Positions 9,884-24,585 of a stretch of DNA of 64,000 bases are shown here, in pieces; the first letter of the stretch is position 1; every line of letters begins with the position of its first letter. Source of the DNA: Microtetraspora fusca (lineage in GTDB: Bacteria > Actinomycetota > Actinomycetes > Streptosporangiales > Streptosporangiaceae); contig NZ_BBYK01000040.1 in assembly GCF_001570365.1 (NCBI RefSeq), positions 384,591-448,590 on the forward strand, written 5' to 3'. The translations under genes and the position numbers were made by a program. The notes under the pieces were generated by a model. It was given only the letters and a program-made list of their open reading frames with translations. It made no database searches and was not told where the DNA came from.

Positions 9884-10130
9884 GTATGCAGTCTCCCTTG
9901 GCGAAGAGAGTGCCGTGTCCCACTTGTCCCAGGACGTGGCCGAGGACGAGAGGAATCTCTCCGCCACGCCAGATCATCGGCGGCCCGATTGACCGGGTCG
10001 TCTGGACGGGGGCACGCCTCGGAAGGAGCGATTCTCCGGTGCACAAGCGGCTCATCACCGCCCATGGCAATCCCGGCATTCCCGGTCGATCAGCCCACCG
10101 GCCGGCTGCCCCTCAGGTACGGTGCCGGCC

Positions 10131-13100
10131 ATGGCTGATCTTGCGGCGGGGCTGTACGAGCAAATCGTCACCGAAGGGCTGGCCCACGAGCTGAGCGGCC
10201 ACGGCGACCTGGCTCAGCGGCGCGCGCTCACCCATGTCGAGGCCGCGGACGTGCTGACCGCCCACGTCGCCGCGCTCACCCGCAGGGCGCTGCGCTCGAT
10301 GCGAGGCACCGACGCCGAGCGGCTGGCCGGCCAGGTCGAGCTGGCCAACCGGCTCGCCGCGGTCCTGGGCGAGGTCGCACAGGAGGATACGGTGGCGAGT
10401 TCGCGGGAGCTGCTGCTGGCCGTGACGCGCCACCGTACCCCGGCCGGCGAGCCCGTGTTCCCGCGGCGCCCGGAGACCCCGCTCGCGGCCAGCGCGTTGC
10501 TGGTCAACGGGCACGGGCAGCCGAGCGTTGGCCACGAGCTGAAGCGCGAGCTGGCCTCGGCGGACCAGGTCGACCTGCTGTGTGCCTTCGTCCGCTGGTA
10601 TGGGGTGCGGATCCTCGAGGACGACCTGGCCGAGTTCGTACGGCGAGGCGGACGGCTGAGGGTCATCACGACCACCTACCGAGGGGCGACGGAACGCCGC
10701 GCGCTCGACCGGCTGGCCGAATTGGGCGCCACCGTCAAGATCTCCTACGAGACCAAGACCACCCGGCTGCACGCCAAGGCGTGGCTGTTCCGCAGGGAGA
10801 CCGGCTTCTCCACCGCCTACGTCGGATCCTCGAACCTGTCCAAGTCCGCTCTGATCGACGGGTTGGAGTGGAACGTCCGACTGTCGGCGATGGAGCAGCC
10901 GCACCTGCTGGACACCTTCGCGGCCACCTTCGAGGAGTACTGGGGCGACCCGGCCTTCGAGAGCTACGACCCCACGTCGGGGGAGGATCGCGCGCGTCTG
11001 GATGAGGCGCTGGAGCTGGAGAGCGCCGGGCCGCGCGAGCTGCCGCTGGCGATCGCGTCCCTGGACGTACGCCCCTTCGGCTACCAGAGCGAGGTCCTGG
11101 CCGACCTCGCCGCCGAGCGGCAGGTCCACGACCGTTGGCACAACCTGGTGGTGATGGCCACCGGGACCGGCAAGACGGTGGTGTCCGCGCTGGACTACCG
11201 GGGGCTGCGCGAGGCGGGCGAGGTCGACTCGCTGCTCTTCGTCGCACACCGGGAGGAGATCCTCACCCAGAGCCAGGCCACCTTCCGGCACGTGCTGCGT
11301 GACGGCGCGTTCGGCGAGCTGTACGTCGGCGGGCGACGACCCGAGCAGTGGCGGCACGTGTTCGCCTCCATCCAGTCGCTGCACCGCCTCGACCTGGACC
11401 CGCTCGGCCCGGACGCGTTCGACATGGTGATCGTGGACGAGTTCCACCACGCCGAGGCGGCCACGTACGTCCGCCTGCTCGACCACCTCAAGCCGCGCGT
11501 GCTGCTGGGCCTGACCGCCACCCCCGAGCGGACCGACGGCCAGGACGTCAAGCGCTGGTTCGGCGGCCGGATCGCGGTCGAGCTGCGCCTGTGGGAGGCC
11601 GTCGAACGGCAGCTTCTGGCGCCGTTCCAGTACTTCGGCGTACACGATGGCGTGGACCTCTCCGCCGTGCCGTGGAAGCGCGGCCAGGGCTACGAGCTGG
11701 CCCGCCTCAGCAACGTGTTCACCGGCAACGACGCGCGCGTCCGCCTGGTGCTGGAAACGCTGCGTCGCAAGATCGGCGACGTCGCGCGGATGCGGGCGCT
11801 GGGCTTCTGCGTGAGCGTGGAACACGCCGAATACATGGCGCGGCGCTTCAGCGAGGCGGGCATCCCCGCCCTGGCCGTCACCTCCCGCACTCCGCGCACC
11901 GAACGGGAGGAAGGGCTGCGGAAGCTGCGGTCCCGTGAGGTCAACATCGTCTTCGCCGTCGACCTGTTCAACGAGGGCGTCGACATCCCCAGCATCGACA
12001 CCGTTCTCCTCCTGCGCCCGACCGACAGTGCCACCGTCTTCCTGCAGCAGCTCGGCCGCGGACTGCGCCTCGATGACGGCAAGGCCTGCCTGACCGTGCT
12101 GGACTTCATCGGCAACCAGCACCGCCGGTTCCGCTTCGACCGTCGTTACCGCGCGCTGACCGGCACCAGCCGTACGGGCGTCGCCCGCGAGGTCGAAGCG
12201 GGCTTCCCCACCCTGCCGCCCGGCTGCCACATCGACCTGGACCGCGAGGTCGCGCGGCTGGTGCTGAACAACATCCGCCAGTCGCTGAACCTGCGCTGGC
12301 CCGACCTGACCGACGAACTCGTCTCGCTGCCCGAACAGACCACCCTGGCCGCCTTCCTCGACGAGACCGGGTTGGAGCTGGAGGACCTCTACCGCCGCCG
12401 CCCCGGCTGGGCGGCGCTGCGCCGCGCGGCCGGCAGGGGCCGTACGCCCGGCCCCCTGGACGAGAAGATCGGCAAGGCGCTCGGCCGCATGCTCCACATC
12501 GACGACCCCGACCGGCTGGCCTTCATGCGCCTGCTGCGTGGCGGGGAGTCGCTCCGCGAGCGGCGGCTGCTCGCGATGCTCGACGTCGCGCTCTGGGGCG
12601 GCACCACGCCCTCGTCTACCGCAGAGGAGCGGCTGGCGGAGCTACTCGCCCACGCGGACCGGGTGAGCGAGCTGCTGGAACTGTCCGACCTGCTCGCGGA
12701 ACGCCGCCAGCGTGTGACGCGTCCGCTGCCCGGAGACGTCCCCCTGCACATCCATGCCACATACAGCAAGAACGAGGCCCTGGCCGCTTTCGGTGTGGAC
12801 AAACCCGCGCACATGCGTGAAGGCGTCAAATGGGTGCCCGAGGCGAACGCCGACCTGTTCTTCGTCACCATCGACAAGTCCGAGAGCCTCTTCTCACCGA
12901 CGACCATGTACCACGACCGGGCCATCACCCCCTCCCTCTTCCAGTGGGAGTCCCAGTCCACGTTGCGCCGCACCAACCCCACGGCGTTGCGCTACCAGTC
13001 CGGACGGTCCGACGTCCACCTGTTCATCAGGGAGCACAAGCGGGAGGAGGGATTGGGCGCGCCGCCGTACCTGTATGCCGGGCCGATGACCTACGAGGAC

Positions 13101-16276: not shown

Positions 16277-17719
16277 GCGAGCAATCGTCAAGACCTGTGG
16301 ATCACGAATTTCTAAGCAGCTGCCGGTGAGGGCTGATCGTCGGGACGTTCGACGAGCCTGCCGTTGATGAAGGTCGCCCCGGCGCGGACCAGGGCGACGA
16401 GGTGGGGCGCGTTGACCGCACGCCAGCGGGCCTGAGCCGACTCGATCAGCTTGAACGCCATGGCCAGCCCAGCCGCCCGAGATCCGGGGCCTTTGGTGAC
16501 CTTGGTGCGGTGCCGGACCGTGGCGAACGTCGACTCGATGGGGTTGGTCGTGCGCAGATGCACCCAGTGCTCTGCGGGGAAGTCGTAGAACGCCAGCAAC
16601 TCGTCCAGGTCGTCGACGACCTTGGCCACGGCCTTGCCGTACTTGGCGCCATACGCTGCCTGGAACGCCGTCACCGCCGCCAGGGCGTGGTCCTTGTCCT
16701 CGGCGTTCCAGATCTCGGCCAGGGCCTTCTTCGCCCCTGGCTGCGCCGACTTCGGCAGCGCCCCCAGCACGTTGGCGATCTTGTGAAACCAACACCTCTG
16801 GGCCCTGGCCTGCGGGAACACCTCACCCAGTGCGGCCCAGAACCCGAGCGCGCCATCCCCTACCGCCAGGACCGGAGCGCGCATTCCCCGACGCTTGCAG
16901 TCACGCAGCAGATCGGCCCACGACTCGGTCGACTCCCGGTAGCCATCGGCCAGCGCGATCAGCTCTTTGCGGCCGTCGGCGCGGACGCCGATCATCACGA
17001 GCAGGCACCACAGCCGCTGCTCTTCCAGGCGGACGTTGACATGGATGCCGTCGGCCCACAGGTAGACGTAGTCCACGTTCGACAGGTCGCGGGCGGCGAA
17101 GGCGCGCTGCTCGGCCTTCCACTGCTCGGTCAACCGTGTGATCACCGGCGCTGACAGTCCGCTTGTGGAGCCGAGGAACTGCCCGAGCGCCGGTACGAAG
17201 TCCCCGCTGGACAGGCCGTGTAGGTAGAGCAGCGGCAGCACCTCGGTGACCTTCGGTGTCTTGCGTGCCCAGGGCGGCAAGATGGCTGAGGAGAATCGCT
17301 TACGTTCGCCGGTGGGCTCATCGGTGCGTTTGTCGTTGATGCGTGGTGCTCGGACCTCGATCGCGCCTGCTGCGGTGAGCACTTCCCGTGGCTGGTGGTA
17401 GCCGTTGCGCACCACCAAACGGCGCCCGTTCTCGTCGCGTTGGTCGGCGAAGGCGGCGATGTAGGCGTCGACCTCGGCTTTGAGGGCTTCGGCGAGCATC
17501 CGGCGGGCGCCTTCGCGGACGATCTCGTCGATGAGCGAGGTGGAGATGGGGCCGTCGGCGGTAGGACGGTCGCCGTCGGCGGGGTCAGGGACTACGGTGA
17601 GCATCGGGTGTGCCTTCCCAGGCGACGTTGGCGCGTCGGCCATGCGTGAGAGACCTCAAACGATCACCGGGAAGGTACACCCCTTCCCGGCCGATCCACA
17701 GATCTCAAGCATTGCTCAC
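16277..17719 (-). mobile_element. IS256-family insertion sequence, intact
   Basis: Imperfect 27-bp terminal inverted repeats bound this 1443-bp element: the left one (16277-16303) begins GCGAGCAAT and ends CTGTGGATC; the right one (17693-17719) is its near complement. It contains one uninterrupted transposase gene. No direct target duplication is visible at the ends I chose, so the true tips could differ by a few bases. Confidence 0.8.
16312..17643 (-). CDS. IS256-family (mutator type) transposase
   Basis: A 443-aa transposase of the Transposase_mut family. The DDE residues are recognisable: Asp in YLWADGIHV, Asp in VGDGALGFW, and Glu in NPIESTFATVRHRT. The N-terminal region LIDEIVREGARRMLAEALKAE is also typical. 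It is full length with no frameshift, so the element may still be active. Relics of related copies lie elsewhere in the window (24698-24775 and 52082-52139). The start at 17643 gives a short Pro-rich N-terminus; a start at MLTVVPDPADGD (about 17604) is equally possible. Confidence 0.93.
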   Translation of the reverse strand: MADAPTSPGKAHPMLTVVPDPADGDRPTADGPISTSLIDEIVREGARRMLAEALKAEVDAYIAAFADQRDENGRRLVVRNGYHQPREVLTAAGAIEVRAPRINDKRTDEPTGERKRFSSAILPPWARKTPKVTEVLPLLYLHGLSSGDFVPALGQFLGSTSGLSAPVITRLTEQWKAEQRAFAARDLSNVDYVYLWADGIHVNVRLEEQRLWCLLVMIGVRADGRKELIALADGYRESTESWADLLRDCKRRGMRAPVLAVGDGALGFWAALGEVFPQARAQRCWFHKIANVLGALPKSAQPGAKKALAEIWNAEDKDHALAAVTAFQAAYGAKYGKAVAKVVDDLDELLAFYDFPAEHWVHLRTTNPIESTFATVRHRTKVTKGPGSRAAGLAMAFKLIESAQARWRAVNAPHLVALVRAGATFINGRLVERPDDQPSPAAA

Positions 17720-18073: not shown

Positions 18074-19099
18074 TTAAGATATCGTCGTGGCGGCTCGGTT
18101 GGCAGCTCGAGCGCAGGCCCAGGAGGCGGCCACGGCGGCAACGATGGTGGAGTGACGGTTGTAGGTGTAGGCATCACCGTCAGCTTGATCTATGCCACGT
18201 GAAGGAAACCGCGGACCGGGTATGGAGCCGTCCGGTAGCTGGGCCTGAGCTAGGTGGTTCCACAGCCGTTCGTCCAGCGTGGGCTGGGGGAGGCATGCGT
18301 CTACGGCCAGCAGTTCGCCTAGCAGGTCCCAGTCCTCCTCCTCGCACCACACTTGTGACCAGCATGGCAGCCAATCGTTGAGGTAAGCCGCTAGAGCGGT
18401 GGGCAGATGTGCGGGCGCTCGGCCCCAGTCCGTCAGGTAGAACACGGTGTGCGTGAGTGCGTAGGCGTGGTGGTGATCCAACAGCCATGGTTCGGGTGTG
18501 CGCGCCAGCCAAGTCCTCGTGATGGCCTCCTCCAGGTCCACGTGCTCGACGGGGAGCCCGAGGGCGCGCTGGGAGGTCAGCCGCGCCAGCAGATGGAAGG
18601 GGGCGACCTCCTTGGCGCTCCAGTTGCGTGTTGTCACGAGCTGGGCGGCGATGTGCTCGATTCCCGCATGGCGCCTGCCCCTCTCCCGCAGGAAGGCATA
18701 GAGCGAAAGGACGCTGCCCTCCCCCGGCTCGGCCTTTAACAGTGCGAACAGGACTTCTCCCGCATCGATCTCTTTCCAGATCATGTCGACCATCTCGTGG
18801 GCGAGTCGATGCCGGTCTGTGCGCGGATCGCTGGCCCGCAGGACGGCGGTGCCGGCCAGCGCGAGTTCGGTCAGTGGCGTCAGCGCGCGCCCCCACCAGA
18901 GAGCGTCTATGTATCGGTGCCGGGGATGGTCCGGGCAGCCGCGCTGGCGAAGGCAGGCGGTACAGGAGCGCTCAGGGAGGAGCGGCGGCTGCAGGATGTC
19001 GGATGCCCGCAGCTCGGTGCTCAGCCGGAATCGGTCGAGGTGCTGATGTAGCCAGCGCACTGCCCCGTCGGCGATGGTGTCGAAGATCGGGCCGGTCAT
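18074..19099 (-). CDS. Uncharacterised helical protein (DUF6895-like), last gene of the cyanobactin-like locus
   Basis: A 341-aa Ala/Leu-rich, mainly helical soluble protein with repeated motifs such as HLLARLTSQRALGLP and WLLDHHHAYALTHTVFYLTDWG. It resembles the actinobacterial DUF6895 family, but I assign this only tentatively. A CxxC near residues 46-49 (SCTACLRQRGCPDHP) could bind metal. Its ATG overlaps the stop of the upstream subtilase (ATGA), so the two are translationally coupled, which argues for a shared pathway. It could be an accessory or partner protein of the RiPP-maturing enzymes. It has no known catalytic motif, signal peptide or membrane segment. Confidence 0.6.
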   Translation of the reverse strand: MTGPIFDTIADGAVRWLHQHLDRFRLSTELRASDILQPPLLPERSCTACLRQRGCPDHPRHRYIDALWWGRALTPLTELALAGTAVLRASDPRTDRHRLAHEMVDMIWKEIDAGEVLFALLKAEPGEGSVLSLYAFLRERGRRHAGIEHIAAQLVTTRNWSAKEVAPFHLLARLTSQRALGLPVEHVDLEEAITRTWLARTPEPWLLDHHHAYALTHTVFYLTDWGRAPAHLPTALAAYLNDWLPCWSQVWCEEEDWDLLGELLAVDACLPQPTLDERLWNHLAQAQLPDGSIPGPRFPSRGIDQADGDAYTYNRHSTIVAAVAASWACARAANRAATTIS

Positions 19100-20532
19100 G
19101 AGCGCTTCCCGTTCAGCAACGCGCGGGCGGCCTGCAGATGGTGCACGGCCTGGGGATCGTGAGGCGTGCGCTGGGCCAAAAAGTCGATGCCCGTCTCCAG
19201 ACCAAGGGTGTGCGGTGCCATCCCGGACAGGGCGAGCCAGCGCGCGGCGCCGGCGGCCTGCCGGTAGTCGCGTCGCATGACCGCCCGGACGAATCCCCGG
19301 GCGACGTCGAGGACGCGCTGTCGGACCAGGGCGAGCAGGGCCGGACGGGCGCCGGGTTCGGCCTGGTCGGCCAGGTCGGCAAGGTGTGCTGTCAGCTGGG
19401 GCCAGGCGAGGTTGGCCAGGTGCTGGGTGTCGTGCTGGCGCGGGTGCGCCGCGACGTCAGGGGCGTGCTGGTGGACGCGGCCGGAGCTGGCAGGGGCCGG
19501 GGCCGAGTGGTCGTGCTGGGCTGGGGAGGAAAGCCCTATGCCGGGCGAGGGGGCGGCAAGGAGGCGACGAGTGGCTGCGGGCACGTCGATGAAGCCGTTC
19601 AGGCAACGTTCAGTCTGACCGTGGCTCTGTTCGGGCATGCAGGGGCGGGCGGTGGCCAGCAGCGCATCCCGGACCGCGAGCGCGTCGGGTGGCTGGCCGA
19701 GGTGGCGTTGCAGGCTGATCAGCAGGGCTGCGGCGCCGGTGACCAGGGCGACGGCGACGCAGGTGCCTTTCTGCGCTTCGATGTCACCGTCGGGGTGGGC
19801 GCCGTAGACGGCCTCGCCCAGGGCGGTGATGCCGTGCCCGGTGTAGGCGGGTCCGTGGTTGCTGAAGTAGAACATGGCGCCGTCGGCCCGGTGGGCGCCG
19901 ACGGCCAGCACGCCGGGCAGGATGGCGGGAGCGATGCTGTTGTTGCCGTAGTCGTTGCCGGCCGGCGCGGTGATGAGCACGCCGGCGTCGATGGCGCGGG
20001 CGATGGCGCGTTTGAGCATGTCGTCGGCGTCGTGGGAGGCGGTGGGGAGGGCCAGGGTGAACTGGATGATGTCGGCCCCGGCCTCCACCAGTTCCTCCAC
20101 GGCGCGCGCTCCCGACAGCGGGTCGGGCGGGTTCTCCTCGTCGACTGGCGGGGAGAGGAATAGGGCGCGGCAGCGGGGGGCCAGGCCGGGCAGGATGCTG
20201 CCGGGCTGGCCGAGTAGCACGCTGGCGGTCCAGGTGCCGTGTTCGGCCATCTTCGGGTCGGTCTGGGTGGGGGGCAACCACCAGGTGGGAAGCACGCGTA
20301 GGTCAGCGCCGGTGAGGCTGGGGTGGGACAACTGTGGGGGTCCGTCGACGACGCCGATGGTGATGCCCGGATCTCCGCCTTGGGTGTGCCGCCACAGCTC
20401 GGCGATCCCGGCCACAGCCTGCGCGGGATAGCGCGGCGGGGGCGCGGATCGGTCGGGCGGGGTATCCGGCTGCGCAGTCGGTGGGGCGGCGGTCCCGGGC
20501 GCGGGGCCGGGGGCGGTGCGGGCATCGGCCAT
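19096..20532 (-). CDS. Subtilisin-like S8 protein with Cys nucleophile (natural subtiligase-like active site)
   Basis: A 478-aa protein with a peptidase S8 fold at residues ~40-330. Asp63 (GVVDGP), His98 (EHGTWTAS) and oxyanion Asn193 (APAGND) are present. The GTSxAxP motif reads GTCVAVA, so the nucleophile is Cys258 (codon TGC at 19759-19761) and the usual Pro four residues on is Ala262. In subtilisin BPN' numbering these are S221C and P225A, the pair used to make subtiligase, which favours peptide ligation over hydrolysis. The C-terminal ~140 residues are helical and unassigned. ATG 20532 has AGGAG 7 bases upstream. By context it is the PatA-like partner of the PatG-like gene. Ligase activity is an inference; a pseudo-enzyme is the alternative. 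Confidence 0.85.
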   Translation of the reverse strand: MADARTAPGPAPGTAAPPTAQPDTPPDRSAPPPRYPAQAVAGIAELWRHTQGGDPGITIGVVDGPPQLSHPSLTGADLRVLPTWWLPPTQTDPKMAEHGTWTASVLLGQPGSILPGLAPRCRALFLSPPVDEENPPDPLSGARAVEELVEAGADIIQFTLALPTASHDADDMLKRAIARAIDAGVLITAPAGNDYGNNSIAPAILPGVLAVGAHRADGAMFYFSNHGPAYTGHGITALGEAVYGAHPDGDIEAQKGTCVAVALVTGAAALLISLQRHLGQPPDALAVRDALLATARPCMPEQSHGQTERCLNGFIDVPAATRRLLAAPSPGIGLSSPAQHDHSAPAPASSGRVHQHAPDVAAHPRQHDTQHLANLAWPQLTAHLADLADQAEPGARPALLALVRQRVLDVARGFVRAVMRRDYRQAAGAARWLALSGMAPHTLGLETGIDFLAQRTPHDPQAVHHLQAARALLNGKRS

Positions 20533-20584
20533 CGGCGGGCTCCTGTCGTCGTCGGGGTTGCCAGAAAGAGGGGGCGACCGACCT

Positions 20585-20779
20585 TCAGAGGGCCGACAGC
20601 TTGGCCTGCTCATAGGACGGCCGGCTGAAGGCGGCGGGGTCGTTGACGTTGGCGTTGAAGGTGAGCAGGTTGCGGATGCGGGTTCGCTGCTCGCGAGTCG
20701 CAGCGTTCAGGCCGAGGGTGGTGTAGGGGTCGATCAGCTCGGGTCGGCGCACCGGGGGCGCCTGCGGGGGACGGCTCAC
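20585..20779 (-). CDS. 64-aa small protein between the two subtilases
   Basis: Begins at GTG 20779 with AAGGAG 7 bases upstream; a TTG directly before it is the other option. The N-terminus reads VSRPPQAPPVRRPELIDPYTT and shares the PxVxR element with the 46-aa precursor at 22936-23076. The C-terminal half is LLTFNANVNDPAAFSRPSYE. It lies 43 bases after the PatG-like gene and 52 bases before the Cys-type subtilase, so it belongs to the operon. It could be a second precursor peptide, or a counterpart of the small PatB/PatC-type proteins of cyanobactin clusters. I cannot decide between these from sequence. Confidence 0.65.
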   Translation of the reverse strand: MSRPPQAPPVRRPELIDPYTTLGLNAATREQRTRIRNLLTFNANVNDPAAFSRPSYEQAKLSAL

Positions 20780-20822
20780 CAAAACACTCCTTCTCTCGAG
20801 GGCAGGTGGAACAGGTGGGCGG

Positions 20823-22811
20823 TCAGGCTTCGGGCCAGGAGCGGACCTGGCCGATGCTGACCGGCAGGACGTCCTTGACGTCGATGGTGAAGCGGTAGAC
20901 GCGCTTGGCCCGCTTGCTGTTGTCAGGGTCGAAGAAGCGCAGCTTCACATCCCAGCAGTCGCTGTCAGGGCGGCCGTAAGGGCTTTTCTCCACGTCGATG
21001 TTCTGCAGGGCCATGCCGTGGCCGAGAGCCTCGGCCAGGGTTTCGCGGGCCTGGACGGCGTTGGTGGCGGCGTAGTTCAGCGCGCGGTCGCGGCTGGTGG
21101 CGCCGAAGTTGCGCAGGTCGTAGTAGATGCGCTGGAGGAAGTCGGCGACCGCGTCGCTGAGGGGGGTGCCGTGATCGTGGCCGCGCTGGTTGTGCTCGGG
21201 CACACCGCAGTCCATGACAGCCTGGGCTAGCGAGGCGACCGACCAGCCGTACAGGCCGCGAGTCAGGTTCACCTCGACCACCGGCACGTACTGCCCGTTG
21301 AACAGCTTCGCGGTACGGCCGGGCAGCGTGCCGGGGATGGACACCCGGTCGACGAACTCGGCGTCGTCCTCGGCCTTGAGCTGGCGCTCCAGGAAGTCGG
21401 TCAGCCGCTCGTACACATCGGGCCCGTACCCGCCGACCGGCTCGATGGCGTAGATCGGGGTCAGGTCCAGATTCAGCGTCCAGATCAGCGGCCGCGCCTC
21501 GGAGGGGTGCTCGCGCAGGTAGGCCACCATCTGCCGCGGATCGTAGGGGTTGGCCGGCACGCTGTGCCCGTCCACCTGCACCGTCGGCATGAGCTGCTTG
21601 AAGGAGTCACGGCGGGCCTCGCTGCCGAAGTCATAGCCCAGCGTTCCTAGCGCGTACACCAGCCGCTGCGCCGCGGGCGGGGCCTGCTGGGGCTCATCTG
21701 CCGAGGGCACCACACCGGCAGGGATCGGCGGCGGCGTCACGACGGGAGCGGGTACCGGCGCCGAAGGGGCGGTCGTGGGGATGAAGGACTCGCCAGTGGT
21801 GCAGTCACACCCGGCCGGGGCACCGGTCGGCGGCAGGGCGCCGCAGGAGGGGGCCACGGCCGGCTCGCCCGCGTCCACCGGGGAGTCCGGGCCCGCCGGC
21901 GTGGCGGCCGAAGAGGTCGAGGAAGAGGTGGTCACAGCAGTCACCGCTTTCGTGATGTTGAGTGTTCCGTTCAAGTGCCGCAGGCATGCCGCGCTCTCCA
22001 GGCTGTCGAGCGGGCCGGTGCCCGGCTCGCAGGGATCGGCGGTTTCGCGCAGCAACTCGCCGACGGCGAGAGGGTCCGGTTTGCCGCCCTGGCGCAACTG
22101 CAGACAGGTCAGCAACGCCGCCACCCCCGCCACGATCGGTGTGGCCAGGCTGGTGCCGGTCATCGTCGCGATCCCGCCGCCCGGTACGGCGACCCGGATG
22201 TCCTGGCCGGGGGCCAGCAGCCCCTGTCGGCGGCTGCCGGGCCCGAAGTTGCTGATCGGCAACGGCCGTCCGGCATCGTCGCACGCGCCCACGGCCAGCA
22301 CCCCCTCCAGGGTCGCCGGCACGTGATCGCACAGGCAGCCGTCGTTGCCGGCGGCTGCCACGATCAGTACGCCCTGCTCGCGGCAGCGGCGCACCGCCCG
22401 CGTCAGAACGTCCTCGGCCTCGCCGGCGTCGGCCAGCTGTCCGCCGCTGACGTTGATGATGTGCGCGCCGGCCTCGGCCGCAAGCTCGATCGCGCGAGCC
22501 AGCTCCAGTTGGGAGGTGCGCCGCCTTTCGACGAACACCGGCACGCTGATCGCCCGGCACGCCGGTGTCACACCCATCACCGGGCCGTCGTGGCGGCCGA
22601 ACAGCACGCTGGCCACCGCAGTGCCGTGGGCCGCCTTGGCACCTGCTGCACCGGCGGGCCAGACGTCACGCACCTGGCTCGGCTTTCCAGCCGGAAAGGC
22701 CGGGTGCGTCTCGTCGACCAGCCCGTCGACGACGGCCACCGTGATCCGGTCGTCGCCCGTGGTCAACTTCCACAGATCGGCCAGTCCGGGGATGTCCCGC
22801 ACCTCGCCCAT
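20823..22811 (-). CDS. PatA/PatG-like subtilisin protease with C-terminal PatG-type domain
   Basis: A 662-aa protein. Residues ~5-275 are an S8 subtilase with complete triad: Asp29 (AVVDG), His62 (AHGTAVAS), Ser221 (GTSLATP) and oxyanion Asn156 (AAGND). A Ser/Pro/Ala linker with a Cys-rich patch (CGALPPTGAPAGCDC) follows. The last ~240 residues, starting LVYALGTLGYDFGSEARRDSF, match the domain shared by cyanobactin proteases PatA and PatG. In cyanobactin pathways these enzymes cleave the precursor and macrocyclise the core. ATG 22811 has AGGAG just upstream. No signal peptide is seen, so it acts in the cytoplasm. It is second in the operon after the 46-aa precursor. Confidence 0.88.
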   Translation of the reverse strand: MGEVRDIPGLADLWKLTTGDDRITVAVVDGLVDETHPAFPAGKPSQVRDVWPAGAAGAKAAHGTAVASVLFGRHDGPVMGVTPACRAISVPVFVERRRTSQLELARAIELAAEAGAHIINVSGGQLADAGEAEDVLTRAVRRCREQGVLIVAAAGNDGCLCDHVPATLEGVLAVGACDDAGRPLPISNFGPGSRRQGLLAPGQDIRVAVPGGGIATMTGTSLATPIVAGVAALLTCLQLRQGGKPDPLAVGELLRETADPCEPGTGPLDSLESAACLRHLNGTLNITKAVTAVTTSSSTSSAATPAGPDSPVDAGEPAVAPSCGALPPTGAPAGCDCTTGESFIPTTAPSAPVPAPVVTPPPIPAGVVPSADEPQQAPPAAQRLVYALGTLGYDFGSEARRDSFKQLMPTVQVDGHSVPANPYDPRQMVAYLREHPSEARPLIWTLNLDLTPIYAIEPVGGYGPDVYERLTDFLERQLKAEDDAEFVDRVSIPGTLPGRTAKLFNGQYVPVVEVNLTRGLYGWSVASLAQAVMDCGVPEHNQRGHDHGTPLSDAVADFLQRIYYDLRNFGATSRDRALNYAATNAVQARETLAEALGHGMALQNIDVEKSPYGRPDSDCWDVKLRFFDPDNSKRAKRVYRFTIDVKDVLPVSIGQVRSWPEA

Positions 22812-22935: not shown

Positions 22936-23076
22936 TTACTCGTCGTTCTCGTCGGCGAAGGGAACGCCCGGAATCGGCACAACCGGCCAGAGGGACTGCT
23001 CCGCGCCGTCACGGTCGGTCGAGGGAGCACCGTTGATGGTGCGCACCACAGGGGCGGACTGGATGGGCAGGTTCAT
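22936..23076 (-). CDS. Candidate cyanobactin-like RiPP precursor peptide (46 aa)
   Basis: ATG at 23076 follows a strong AAAGGAAAGG ribosome site and the frame ends at TAA 22936-22938. The leader begins MNLPIQSAPVVR; PatE-type cyanobactin leaders have ILPQQGQPVIR at the same place. A GAEQS segment resembles the GxExS N-terminal protease recognition motif. It is followed by the hypothetical core LWPVVPIPGVP and an acidic tail FADENDE, comparable to the C-terminal recognition tails (AYDGE, FAGDDAE) used by PatG-type macrocyclases. The core ends in Pro, the residue PatG accepts before the tail. It has no Ser, Thr or Cys, in line with the lack of a YcaO gene here. It is the first gene of the locus, 124 bases before the PatG-like protease. 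Confidence 0.75.
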   Translation of the reverse strand: MNLPIQSAPVVRTINGAPSTDRDGAEQSLWPVVPIPGVPFADENDE

Positions 23077-23264: not shown

Positions 23265-24585
23265 AGTGCTTTGTTGGGTCAGGCTTTTGTGGCTGGTCCG
23301 TTTCGGGATGTAGTGGTGCGATGCGGGCGTGACCCCCGAGCACCTTGCCCATGTCCGGCAGCAACTGGAGTCCTTCGCTGCGGAGATGTTCGCTCCTTTG
23401 GCCCGCCGGGATCAGCGGGCCAAAGGGCTGACCTACCTGCGGGGCCTGCTGCTGGACGGCCGCCGCAAGTCGATGCAGCCGATGGCCGAGCGCCTGGGTG
23501 TCGACCACCAAGGACTCCAGCAGTTCCTCGGCCTGGGTGATCGACGACACCGGCTTCCCCAAGGACGGAATCGCCTCACCCGGCGTGGCCCGGCAGTACT
23601 CCGGCACCCTGGGCAAGGTCGGCAACTGCCAGGTCGGCGTCAGCGTGCACGCGGTCACCGACGCCGCCTCCTGCCCGCTGAACTGGCGCCTGTTCCTGCC
23701 CGCCTCCTGGGACCCCGCGCAGGCCGCTGACGATGAGGCCGCCGAGCAGGTCAGCGCGCGCCGCGCCATCCCCGATGGCGAACACCACCGGCCCAAGTGG
23801 CAGCTCGCGGTGGAGATGCTCGATGAGCTGGCCGCGTGGGGTCTTGCGCCGCCGCTGGTGGTGGCCGATGCCGGCTACGGCGACAACGCCCACCTGCGCG
23901 CGGCCCTGTCCGAGCGCGGCCTGCACGTGGTGCAGGTCAAAGGAAAGGAGCGGTCACCGCCCACCACGCCACCGACGAACCCGACCCGGTCACGTACTTG
24001 GGCCGCGGCCGCCCGCCCCGGCCACACCGCTACCCGGCCCGGCCGATCAGCCTGCGCGAGCACGTGCTGGCCGCCGGACATCAGGCGGCGCAAACCGTGA
24101 CCTGGCGGGCCGGCTCCAAAGGGCTCATGACCTCCCAGTTCGTCATCCTGCCCGTTCGCGTCGCCGGGCGTCGGCCGCGCCCCGCAGCCGACGGCACGCT
24201 GCCGATCAGTCTCCTGATCGCGCAATGGCCCGACGATGAGCCCGAGCCGACAAGTACTGGCTGACCGTCCTGCCCGCCGGCACTCCACCGGCCGCGCTGG
24301 TCGCCCTGGCCAAGATCCGCTGGCGGATCGAGCACGACTACCGCGAACTGAAGACCGGCCTGGGCCTGGACCACTTCGAGGGCCGCTCCTGGATCGGCTG
24401 GCATCGCCACGTCACCCTGGTGACCTCCGCGCATCTGTTCTGCACCGAACTGCGCCTGCACGACCCAAAAGCTGCGGCCTGACCCTCTACACGATCCTCA
24501 AGGAACTCCAGGTGCTCCTGGCCACCTGGACCGGCCGCTGCCCGACCTGCTCACAGCGACCACCCTGATCACCTAACAAAGCACT
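23265..24585 (+). mobile_element. IS701-family insertion sequence, decayed
   Basis: Ends carry inverted repeats starting AGTGCTTTGTT (23265) and the complement AACAAAGCACT (ending 24585). The transposase inside is broken (see the pseudogene entry), so the copy cannot move itself. It sits directly upstream of the RiPP precursor promoter region and separates this locus from the LamG/amidase gene. Confidence 0.75.
23329..24568 (+). pseudogene. IS701-family transposase, frameshifted and internally deleted
   Basis: The N-terminal part (MTPEHLAHVRQQLESFAAEMFAPLARR) ends at about 23530, where roughly 25 codons are missing. A second frame resumes with WVIDDTGFPKDG and YSGTLGKVGNCQVGVS and runs to VVQVKGKE. 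A third carries VTYLGRGRPPRPH to DDEPEP. A further shift leads to YWLTVLPAGTPPAALV and RIEHDYRELK. The DDE residues (VIDDT, VADAGYG, RIEHDYRE) are all visible but sit in different frames. The gene is dead. Confidence 0.85.

Follow-up and report, generated by a model that had tools for sequence, protein, structure and literature searches.

A Cys/Ala subtilase in a cyanobactin-type operon of Microtetraspora: a candidate natural subtiligase

Subtiligase, a textbook example of rational enzyme design, carries two substitutions in subtilisin: S221C, which came first in the laboratory, and P225A, which was added as a rescue (PMC7921005). In the peptiligase background, the ratio of synthesis to hydrolysis is 6.1 with Ser at residue 225, 4.5 with Ala and 0.2 with Pro (PMC7921005). 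PatGmac, the macrocyclase of cyanobactins, has Ser and Pro at these two positions; in it, AYDG is bound by a helix-turn-helix motif that protects the acyl-enzyme from water, and the P1 residue is Pro (PMC10043927). An engineered 'PatG-subtiligase', a laboratory variant of cyanobacterial PatG with subtiligase-named mutations, is reported in a review to cyclise by aminolysis without adducts, while the wild type gives linear and cyclic peptides together with linear adducts (PMC4663559). Here we analyse 64,000 nucleotides of Microtetraspora fusca (GCF_001570365.1, contig NZ_BBYK01000040.1, positions 384,591 to 448,590; hereafter 'the window'), where a gene at 19096..20532 encodes a subtilase with both changes of subtiligase at identical positions. 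By analogy, this protein looks like a natural counterpart of PatG-subtiligase. It occupies the place of PatG in a cyanobactin-type operon, and its sequence and surroundings suggest that it is probably a natural subtiligase which makes a head-to-tail ring of the neighbouring peptide.

The gene, like the other operon features located below, is on the minus strand. Its open frame extends to 20613; the frame 19096-20613 has 505 residues without an internal stop, and contains IEAQKGTCVAVALVTGAAALL and QKGTCVAVALVTGAAALL. The start at 20532 is likelier and gives 478 residues, the length of the database protein P0009. In the numbering of the 505-residue frame, residues 285-289 (19747-19761) read CVAVA where subtilisins have S-x-A-x-P: the catalytic Cys, C285, at subtilisin position 221, is encoded by TGC (19759..19761) and Ala289, at position 225, by GCC (19747..19749). 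The triad Asp is D90 (20344..20346), the triad His H125 (20239..20241) and the oxyanion Asn N220 (19954..19956), and in the alignment C285 falls on the catalytic Ser of the PagA and PatG chains. Translation and alignment to these chains therefore confirm what a sequence-only reading had proposed, namely S221C with P225A at this site, and the motif GTSLATP which it gave for the neighbouring subtilase (20823-22811) is also correct. Pfam assigns the protein to Peptidase_S8 (PF00082) with 63.8 bits: the subtilase profile and fold are present and the Ser nucleophile of S8 is absent, replaced by Cys. The name 'serine peptidase' does not suit this Cys clade, whose source-named proteins are mostly annotated as 'S8 family serine peptidase'. 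A base-call error or a pseudogene is ruled out, because an assembly of Microtetraspora niveoalba (locus L004) encodes the same protein (at least 99.6% identity, same GTCVAVA) and 32 database proteins also have Cys at site 221.

How general is this combination among relatives? Three protein searches, each scoring about 8000 candidates (one listed 120 of its 1535 matches), gave 164 proteins, which with P0001 and P0002 make a set of 166, 165 of them readable at the motif. Positions 221 and 225 are Ser/Pro in 128 (a count that covers the listed part of the matches only), Cys/Ala in 25, Cys/Ser in 4, Cys/Thr in 4 and Ser/Ala in 4, P0001 and its copy P0009 both being counted. Among these listed matches, Pro225 is missing from all 33 Cys members and kept in 128 of the 132 Ser members, and none of the 165 readable PatA/PatG-family proteins combines Cys with Pro. 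Besides Microtetraspora, the Cys carriers are named as Nonomuraea, Streptosporangium, Actinomadura, Actinoallomurus, Spongiactinospora, Nocardiopsis and Streptomyces. Where readable, they keep His (29/29) and the oxyanion Asn (32/32); the triad Asp is kept in 26 of 28 and is Glu in the other two. The triad and oxyanion residues that the sequence-only reading had found intact (as Asp63, His98 and Asn193) are thus present in the window protein, but the Asp is not strictly conserved across the clade. Glu at this place also occurs in 20 of the 128 listed Ser/Pro members, including those Ser/Pro proteins that stand closest to the Cys clade, and also in a Ser/Ala pair of proteins described below (Glu sequences are found among P0036-P0041, P0031, P0033 and the second S8 genes, or slot 2, of L009-L011); it is a separate oddity.

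As a background we used 61 other S8 stretches in loci L019-L069, of which 52 were readable at the motif and nine were not, a biased sample that was mostly recovered by this same query and includes PatA/PatG relatives. Cys occurs in 0/52 and Ala225 in 18/52. Pro alone is therefore often lost; what is rare is the Cys. A chance motif can be rejected on these figures, with the proviso that one of the unreadable stretches (L025) is a decayed Cys copy. The idea that P225A is special in itself is weakened, as P0052 and P0144 also have Ala225 with Ser221 retained. A co-variation of Cys with Ala, suggested earlier as a check, is seen in part: in the 33 Cys members gathered, Cys goes without Pro225, but position 225 may be Ala, Ser or Thr, and, as the phylogeny below indicates, the pairing arose once, without repeats. 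The natural Ser225 of some Cys members recalls the good Ser225 variant of peptiligase (PMC7921005).

Does the Cys enzyme descend from macrocyclases or from leader proteases? In a tree of 55 hand-chosen sequences (19 with Cys), computed with the motif columns masked, the PatA-type proteins encoded by the first S8 gene of these operons (slot 1) fall outside, and the actinobacterial proteins of the second S8 gene (slot 2) join PatG-type proteins that bear the insert (two from the cyanobacterial locus L014, and P0049) with support 100/99. The 19 Cys sequences form a single clade (99/93), to which the Ser/Ala pair (L011 and P0041) is sister (100/98). A quick tree, likewise built without the motif, started from a set out of which nine duplicates were taken by hand; of the 179 sequences that then remained, 174 had sufficient coverage, and a redundancy cut reduced these to 104. 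It gives Shimodaira-Hasegawa-like (SH-aLRT) support of 99 for Ser/Ala plus Cys and of 90, not starred, for the Cys clade alone. A canonical Gloeothece operon served as PatA reference; its PatG sequence was mis-aligned and was excluded from both trees. The 55-sequence tree needs one change from Ser to Cys and two losses of Pro, the 104-sequence tree one and three. Approximately unbiased (AU) tests, on groups defined after inspection of the tree, reject a grouping of the Ser/Ala pair with Ser/Pro slot 2 (p 0.018) as well as slots 1 and 2 held together (p 2e-48). The tree thus assigns the Cys enzyme to the PatG macrocyclases, apart from PatA. The most economical order of events would be that Pro225 was lost first, with Ser kept, and that Ser then changed to Cys, the PatG domains being gone by the Cys clade. 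This inferred order is the reverse of that followed in engineering subtiligase, where S221C preceded P225A (PMC7921005).

The order precursor(s), slot-1 S8, PatB-like protein, slot-2 S8 is found in nine loci, so that both S8 proteases (A and G) and the PatB protein expected of a cyanobactin cluster are present, the PatB match scoring slightly under its cut-off. In the window, slot 1 (20823..22811) is an S8 protease of the PatA type that carries the domains PatG_D and PatG_C and the motif GTSLATP and scores 715 bits against TIGR03895; slot 1 has GTSLA[TA]P and PatG-domain similarity in 9/9 loci. Slot 2 varies. Five loci have Cys/Ala or Cys/Ser there and no PatG domains: Microtetraspora (L004, the gene of the window), Nonomuraea pusilla (L005), N. 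zeae (L006; its contig stops with the 360-residue frame, so that the downstream part is unseen), S. carneum (Streptosporangium; L007) and A. purpureus (Actinoallomurus; L008). With PatG domains present, it is Ser/Ala in N. rhizosphaerae (L011) and Ser/Pro in Gandjariella (L009), Saccharopolyspora NFXS83 (L010) and Streptomyces NBRC 110611 (L018); cyanobactin-like genes had already been noted in Saccharopolyspora NFXS83 (PMC10145562). Ser/Pro homologues in the same context had been named as grounds for abandoning the earlier interpretation. They do exist, together with Ser/Ala, in this very slot, but all of them fall as outgroups to a Cys clade that is itself uniform. The locus is indeed of the type that makes ribosomally synthesized and post-translationally modified peptides (RiPPs), with a cyanobactin-type precursor, as first read; the PatG-like neighbour, however, is the PatA-type N-terminal protease, and the Cys enzyme itself is the PatG counterpart.

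One could nevertheless swap the roles, letting the slot-1 Ser/Pro protease cut the follower and cyclise while the Cys enzyme trims the leader. Slot 1 retains PatG_D/PatG_C and its family bears the name PatA/PatG, and the best PDB match of the Cys enzyme is a leader protease, PagA. However, in the PDB comparison slot 1 is far nearer to PagA/PatA (1.7e-85) than to the PatG macrocyclase (1e-43), and the tree joins slot 2 to PatG. We regard this exchange as very unlikely. PatA and PagA are Ser/Pro leader cutters which, like the Cys enzyme, lack the insert; the tree places slot 1, rather than the Cys enzyme, with PatA.

The candidate substrate is a 46-residue cyanobactin-type precursor at 22936..23076, MNLPIQSAPVVR...FADENDE, recognized by residues shared with other precursors (TIGR03678 gives a weak match, E 0.015); its leader-free part is LWPVVPIPGVPFADENDE. 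The cassette reads GAEQS-LWPVVPIPGVP-FADENDE: an N-terminal cleavage signal (22993..23007) resembling recognition sequence II (RSII), a predicted core of 11 residues with Pro at P1 (22960..22992; boundaries deduced from cassettes such as that of N. pusilla) and a C-terminal follower resembling RSIII (22939..22959), identified by precursor comparison. Among 14 precursors from the nine loci, P9, V10, R12, S28, F40 and A41 (window numbering) are common to all and P4 is found in at least 90%. They have the architecture of cyanobactin precursors, a conserved leader and RSII/RSIII-like flanks around a variable core. Leader and F-A end resemble the KKNxxPxxxxPVxR and FAGD patterns by which cyanobactin precursors were found, FAGD being a motif of the piricyclamide type (PMC3428304). 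The GAEQS-type sites resemble the PatA consensus G(L/V)E(A/P)S (PMC10885120), but Ser alone is invariant in the 14. N. pusilla has three tandem cassettes, GVEQS-EWGSFRFP-FAGVEQS-LAWDGSRP-FAGVEQS-VAGNFRVP-FAGEGDE. In the five Cys loci, all eight cores end in Pro; the eight core ends of the four Ser loci are Thr, Gly, Ala, Asp, Ile and three times Pro, all three in L018.

These elements suggest the following route. By cutting after GAEQS, the slot-1 protease would free the core's N-terminus. The Cys enzyme would then attack the Pro39-Phe40 bond, releasing FADENDE and holding the core as a Pro-thioester, and the free amine of Leu29 would displace the thiol to give cyclo-(LWPVVPIPGVP), an 11-residue ring. 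With Pro225 replaced, there would be space for sulfur, the larger atom, and the amine would be preferred to water by the thioester; a thioester is relatively more open to amine attack than an oxygen ester. The core might instead be joined to another amine, from a second core or a small acceptor, with no ring formed: subtiligase itself works intermolecularly (PMC7921005) and N. pusilla has three tandem cores. The PatG relatives, however, cyclise (PMC10043927, PMC10885120), and the N and C signals that each core possesses would suit ring closure, so that we hold intermolecular ligation to be extremely improbable. The broader account of a head-to-tail cyclase, in which an actinobacterial clade of PatG-type macrocyclases lost Pro225, then changed Ser to Cys, and without helix insert or PatG DUF (domain of unknown function) closes cyanobactin-like rings through a thioester, has in our view a slightly better than even chance of being right.

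Several observations weigh against cyclisation by the Cys enzyme. Engineered subtiligase is given an activated ester, in contrast to the Cys enzyme, which would presumably act on a peptide amide; since thiol-subtilisin activity is drastically reduced (PMC7921005), cleavage of a Pro-Phe amide that is not activated poses a genuine problem. The profile scan finds no PatG DUF (PatG_D/PatG_C) in the window protein, which reaches 202 bits against TIGR03895 (cut-off 421), and all five Cys members scanned fall under the NCBIfam PatA/PatG cut-off. The helix-turn-helix macrocyclization insert of PatGmac is absent as well: Asp and His are 35 residues apart, versus 71-98 in insert-bearing proteins. The Cys did not simply replace this insert, since actinobacterial Ser/Pro slot-2 proteins also lack it. 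Among PDB entries, the leader protease PagA (4h6w) is the best single match by sequence and by fold, nearly tied with PatG; in the model m4c6d4aad7fb3 the listed fold matches cover residues 59-354, and the C-terminal helical part (394-500) lies outside them. The association of Cys with P1 Pro is suggestive only: counted by locus (5/5 Cys versus 1/4 Ser, Fisher p 0.048), it is weak and confounded by ancestry, and the Ser/Pro enzyme of L018 is also paired with P1 Pro cores. Finally, the tree shows the pairing of Cys with a lost Pro as a single event.

Also to be set on this side is the C-terminal part of nine long Cys members (listed below), which in some is GNAT-like: a GNAT domain is called by Pfam in P0033 and P0034, given by name in P0022 and P0034, and under the cut-off in L005. 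It is possibly an acetylating tailoring domain, which would argue against a ring because an acetylated N-terminus would block cyclisation. The Cys enzyme might then be a slow cysteine endopeptidase that hydrolyses off FADENDE and leaves a linear, perhaps N-acetylated product. Lack of the insert and capping of a free N-terminus by the GNAT-like part both fit, and linear cyanobactins exist (PMC4663559). However, the change from Ser to Cys with loss of Pro is known to move subtilisins towards aminolysis and away from hydrolysis (PMC7921005), the reverse of what would serve a hydrolase; the enzyme branches with PatG macrocyclases; and no GNAT domain is called in the window, S. carneum or A. purpureus members. 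Simple hydrolysis thus seems to us unlikely. Nine Cys members are 600-668 residues long; the entries given for the long form are L005:9833-11836 and P0011, P0012, P0016, P0018, P0022, P0024, P0026, P0033 and P0034.

Is the enzyme active at all? The ratio of nonsynonymous to synonymous differences (pN/pS) is 0.48-0.84 in 10 pairs, only a modest constraint and a further point on the unfavourable side; GC-rich codons lower the synonymous rate (dS), and such ratios (dN/dS) are weak as proof of selection. A relic that keeps the S8 fold for substrate binding after losing its nucleophile would fit this figure, and decayed copies do occur in N. jiangxiensis (L025) and N. aridisoli (L026), with a frame break in S. 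tauricus (L012). But a dead enzyme should vary at position 221, and what we see is Cys in 33/33 readable members, with His and Asn kept where readable; a non-catalytic role appears very improbable. Given also the loss of Pro in all 33, decay is much less likely than selection for an altered activity. The sequence-only reading was likely right in direction, with the corrections made above, although the changed activity, ligation, is what we infer.

Asparaginyl ligases (butelase and the peptide asparaginyl ligases, PALs) are natural peptide cyclases with a cysteine nucleophile and a caspase-like fold, sharing the nucleophile with the Cys enzyme while the folds are unrelated. Asparaginyl endopeptidase (AEP) is described as a Cys-protease (PMC5834244). 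Compared with PatGmac, the Cys enzyme is actinobacterial, has Cys/Ala for Ser/Pro and lacks both insert and PatG_D/PatG_C; compared with peptiligase (7am7), to which it is 26% identical over the aligned part, it is natural and lies in a RiPP operon. A natural family thus carries the pair of changes once designed for subtiligase, and its relatives with Ser/Ala and Ser/Pro, which occupy that operon slot too, offer a stepwise evolutionary path to set beside the engineered one. If our interpretation is true, this would be the first natural cysteine-nucleophile ligase of the subtilase type; we found no description of a Cys-subtilase clade or a 'natural subtiligase' in our searches of open-licence literature, and one may exist elsewhere. 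The clade also supplies candidate compact peptide cyclases needing neither helix insert nor DUF domain, and cyanobactin-type chemistry is extended to a set of actinobacteria.

Among the other genes of the cluster, an open reading frame (ORF) of 65 residues at 20585..20782 encodes a small PatB/AcyB/McaB-like protein (TIGR04220, 49 bits, cut-off 55). This ORF beside the Cys gene was considered as the precursor and rejected on the TIGR04220 match, and tblastn finds a PatB-like match between both S8 genes in L004-L011 and L018. At 18074..19099, a DUF6895 protein (PF21836, 243 bits), a possible tailoring enzyme, starts four bases inside the end of slot 2; tblastn matches it in L004 only and in none of the other 22 of loci L004-L026. 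No YcaO cyclodehydratase appeared among the scanned genes of the window or of L005-L008, scans that covered part of the genes. Transposases flank the cluster, of the Mutator family at 16312-17643 and DDE_5 at 23498-24100.

The cluster seems to have been gained and lost among actinobacteria: S. tauricus has a Cys copy with a broken frame, and N. jiangxiensis and N. aridisoli have remnants. Broken or fragmentary Cys-type copies lie at L012 9800-10850, L025 9983-10260, L026 near 10001-10171 and L005 2527-2645. In two Ser-type loci, a TP_methylase gene (PF00590) directly follows slot 2 (L009:11689-12513 and L011:7058-7903). This family includes borosin-type backbone N-methyltransferases, and these two loci may make N-methylated peptides. 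A plasmid search returned nine records, none reaching 60% identity; seven of the nine were fetched. In the Streptomyces plasmids L064-L067, PatA/PatG-like S8 genes lie near a BTAD regulator and several small ORFs, and these are possibly plasmid-borne RiPP clusters.
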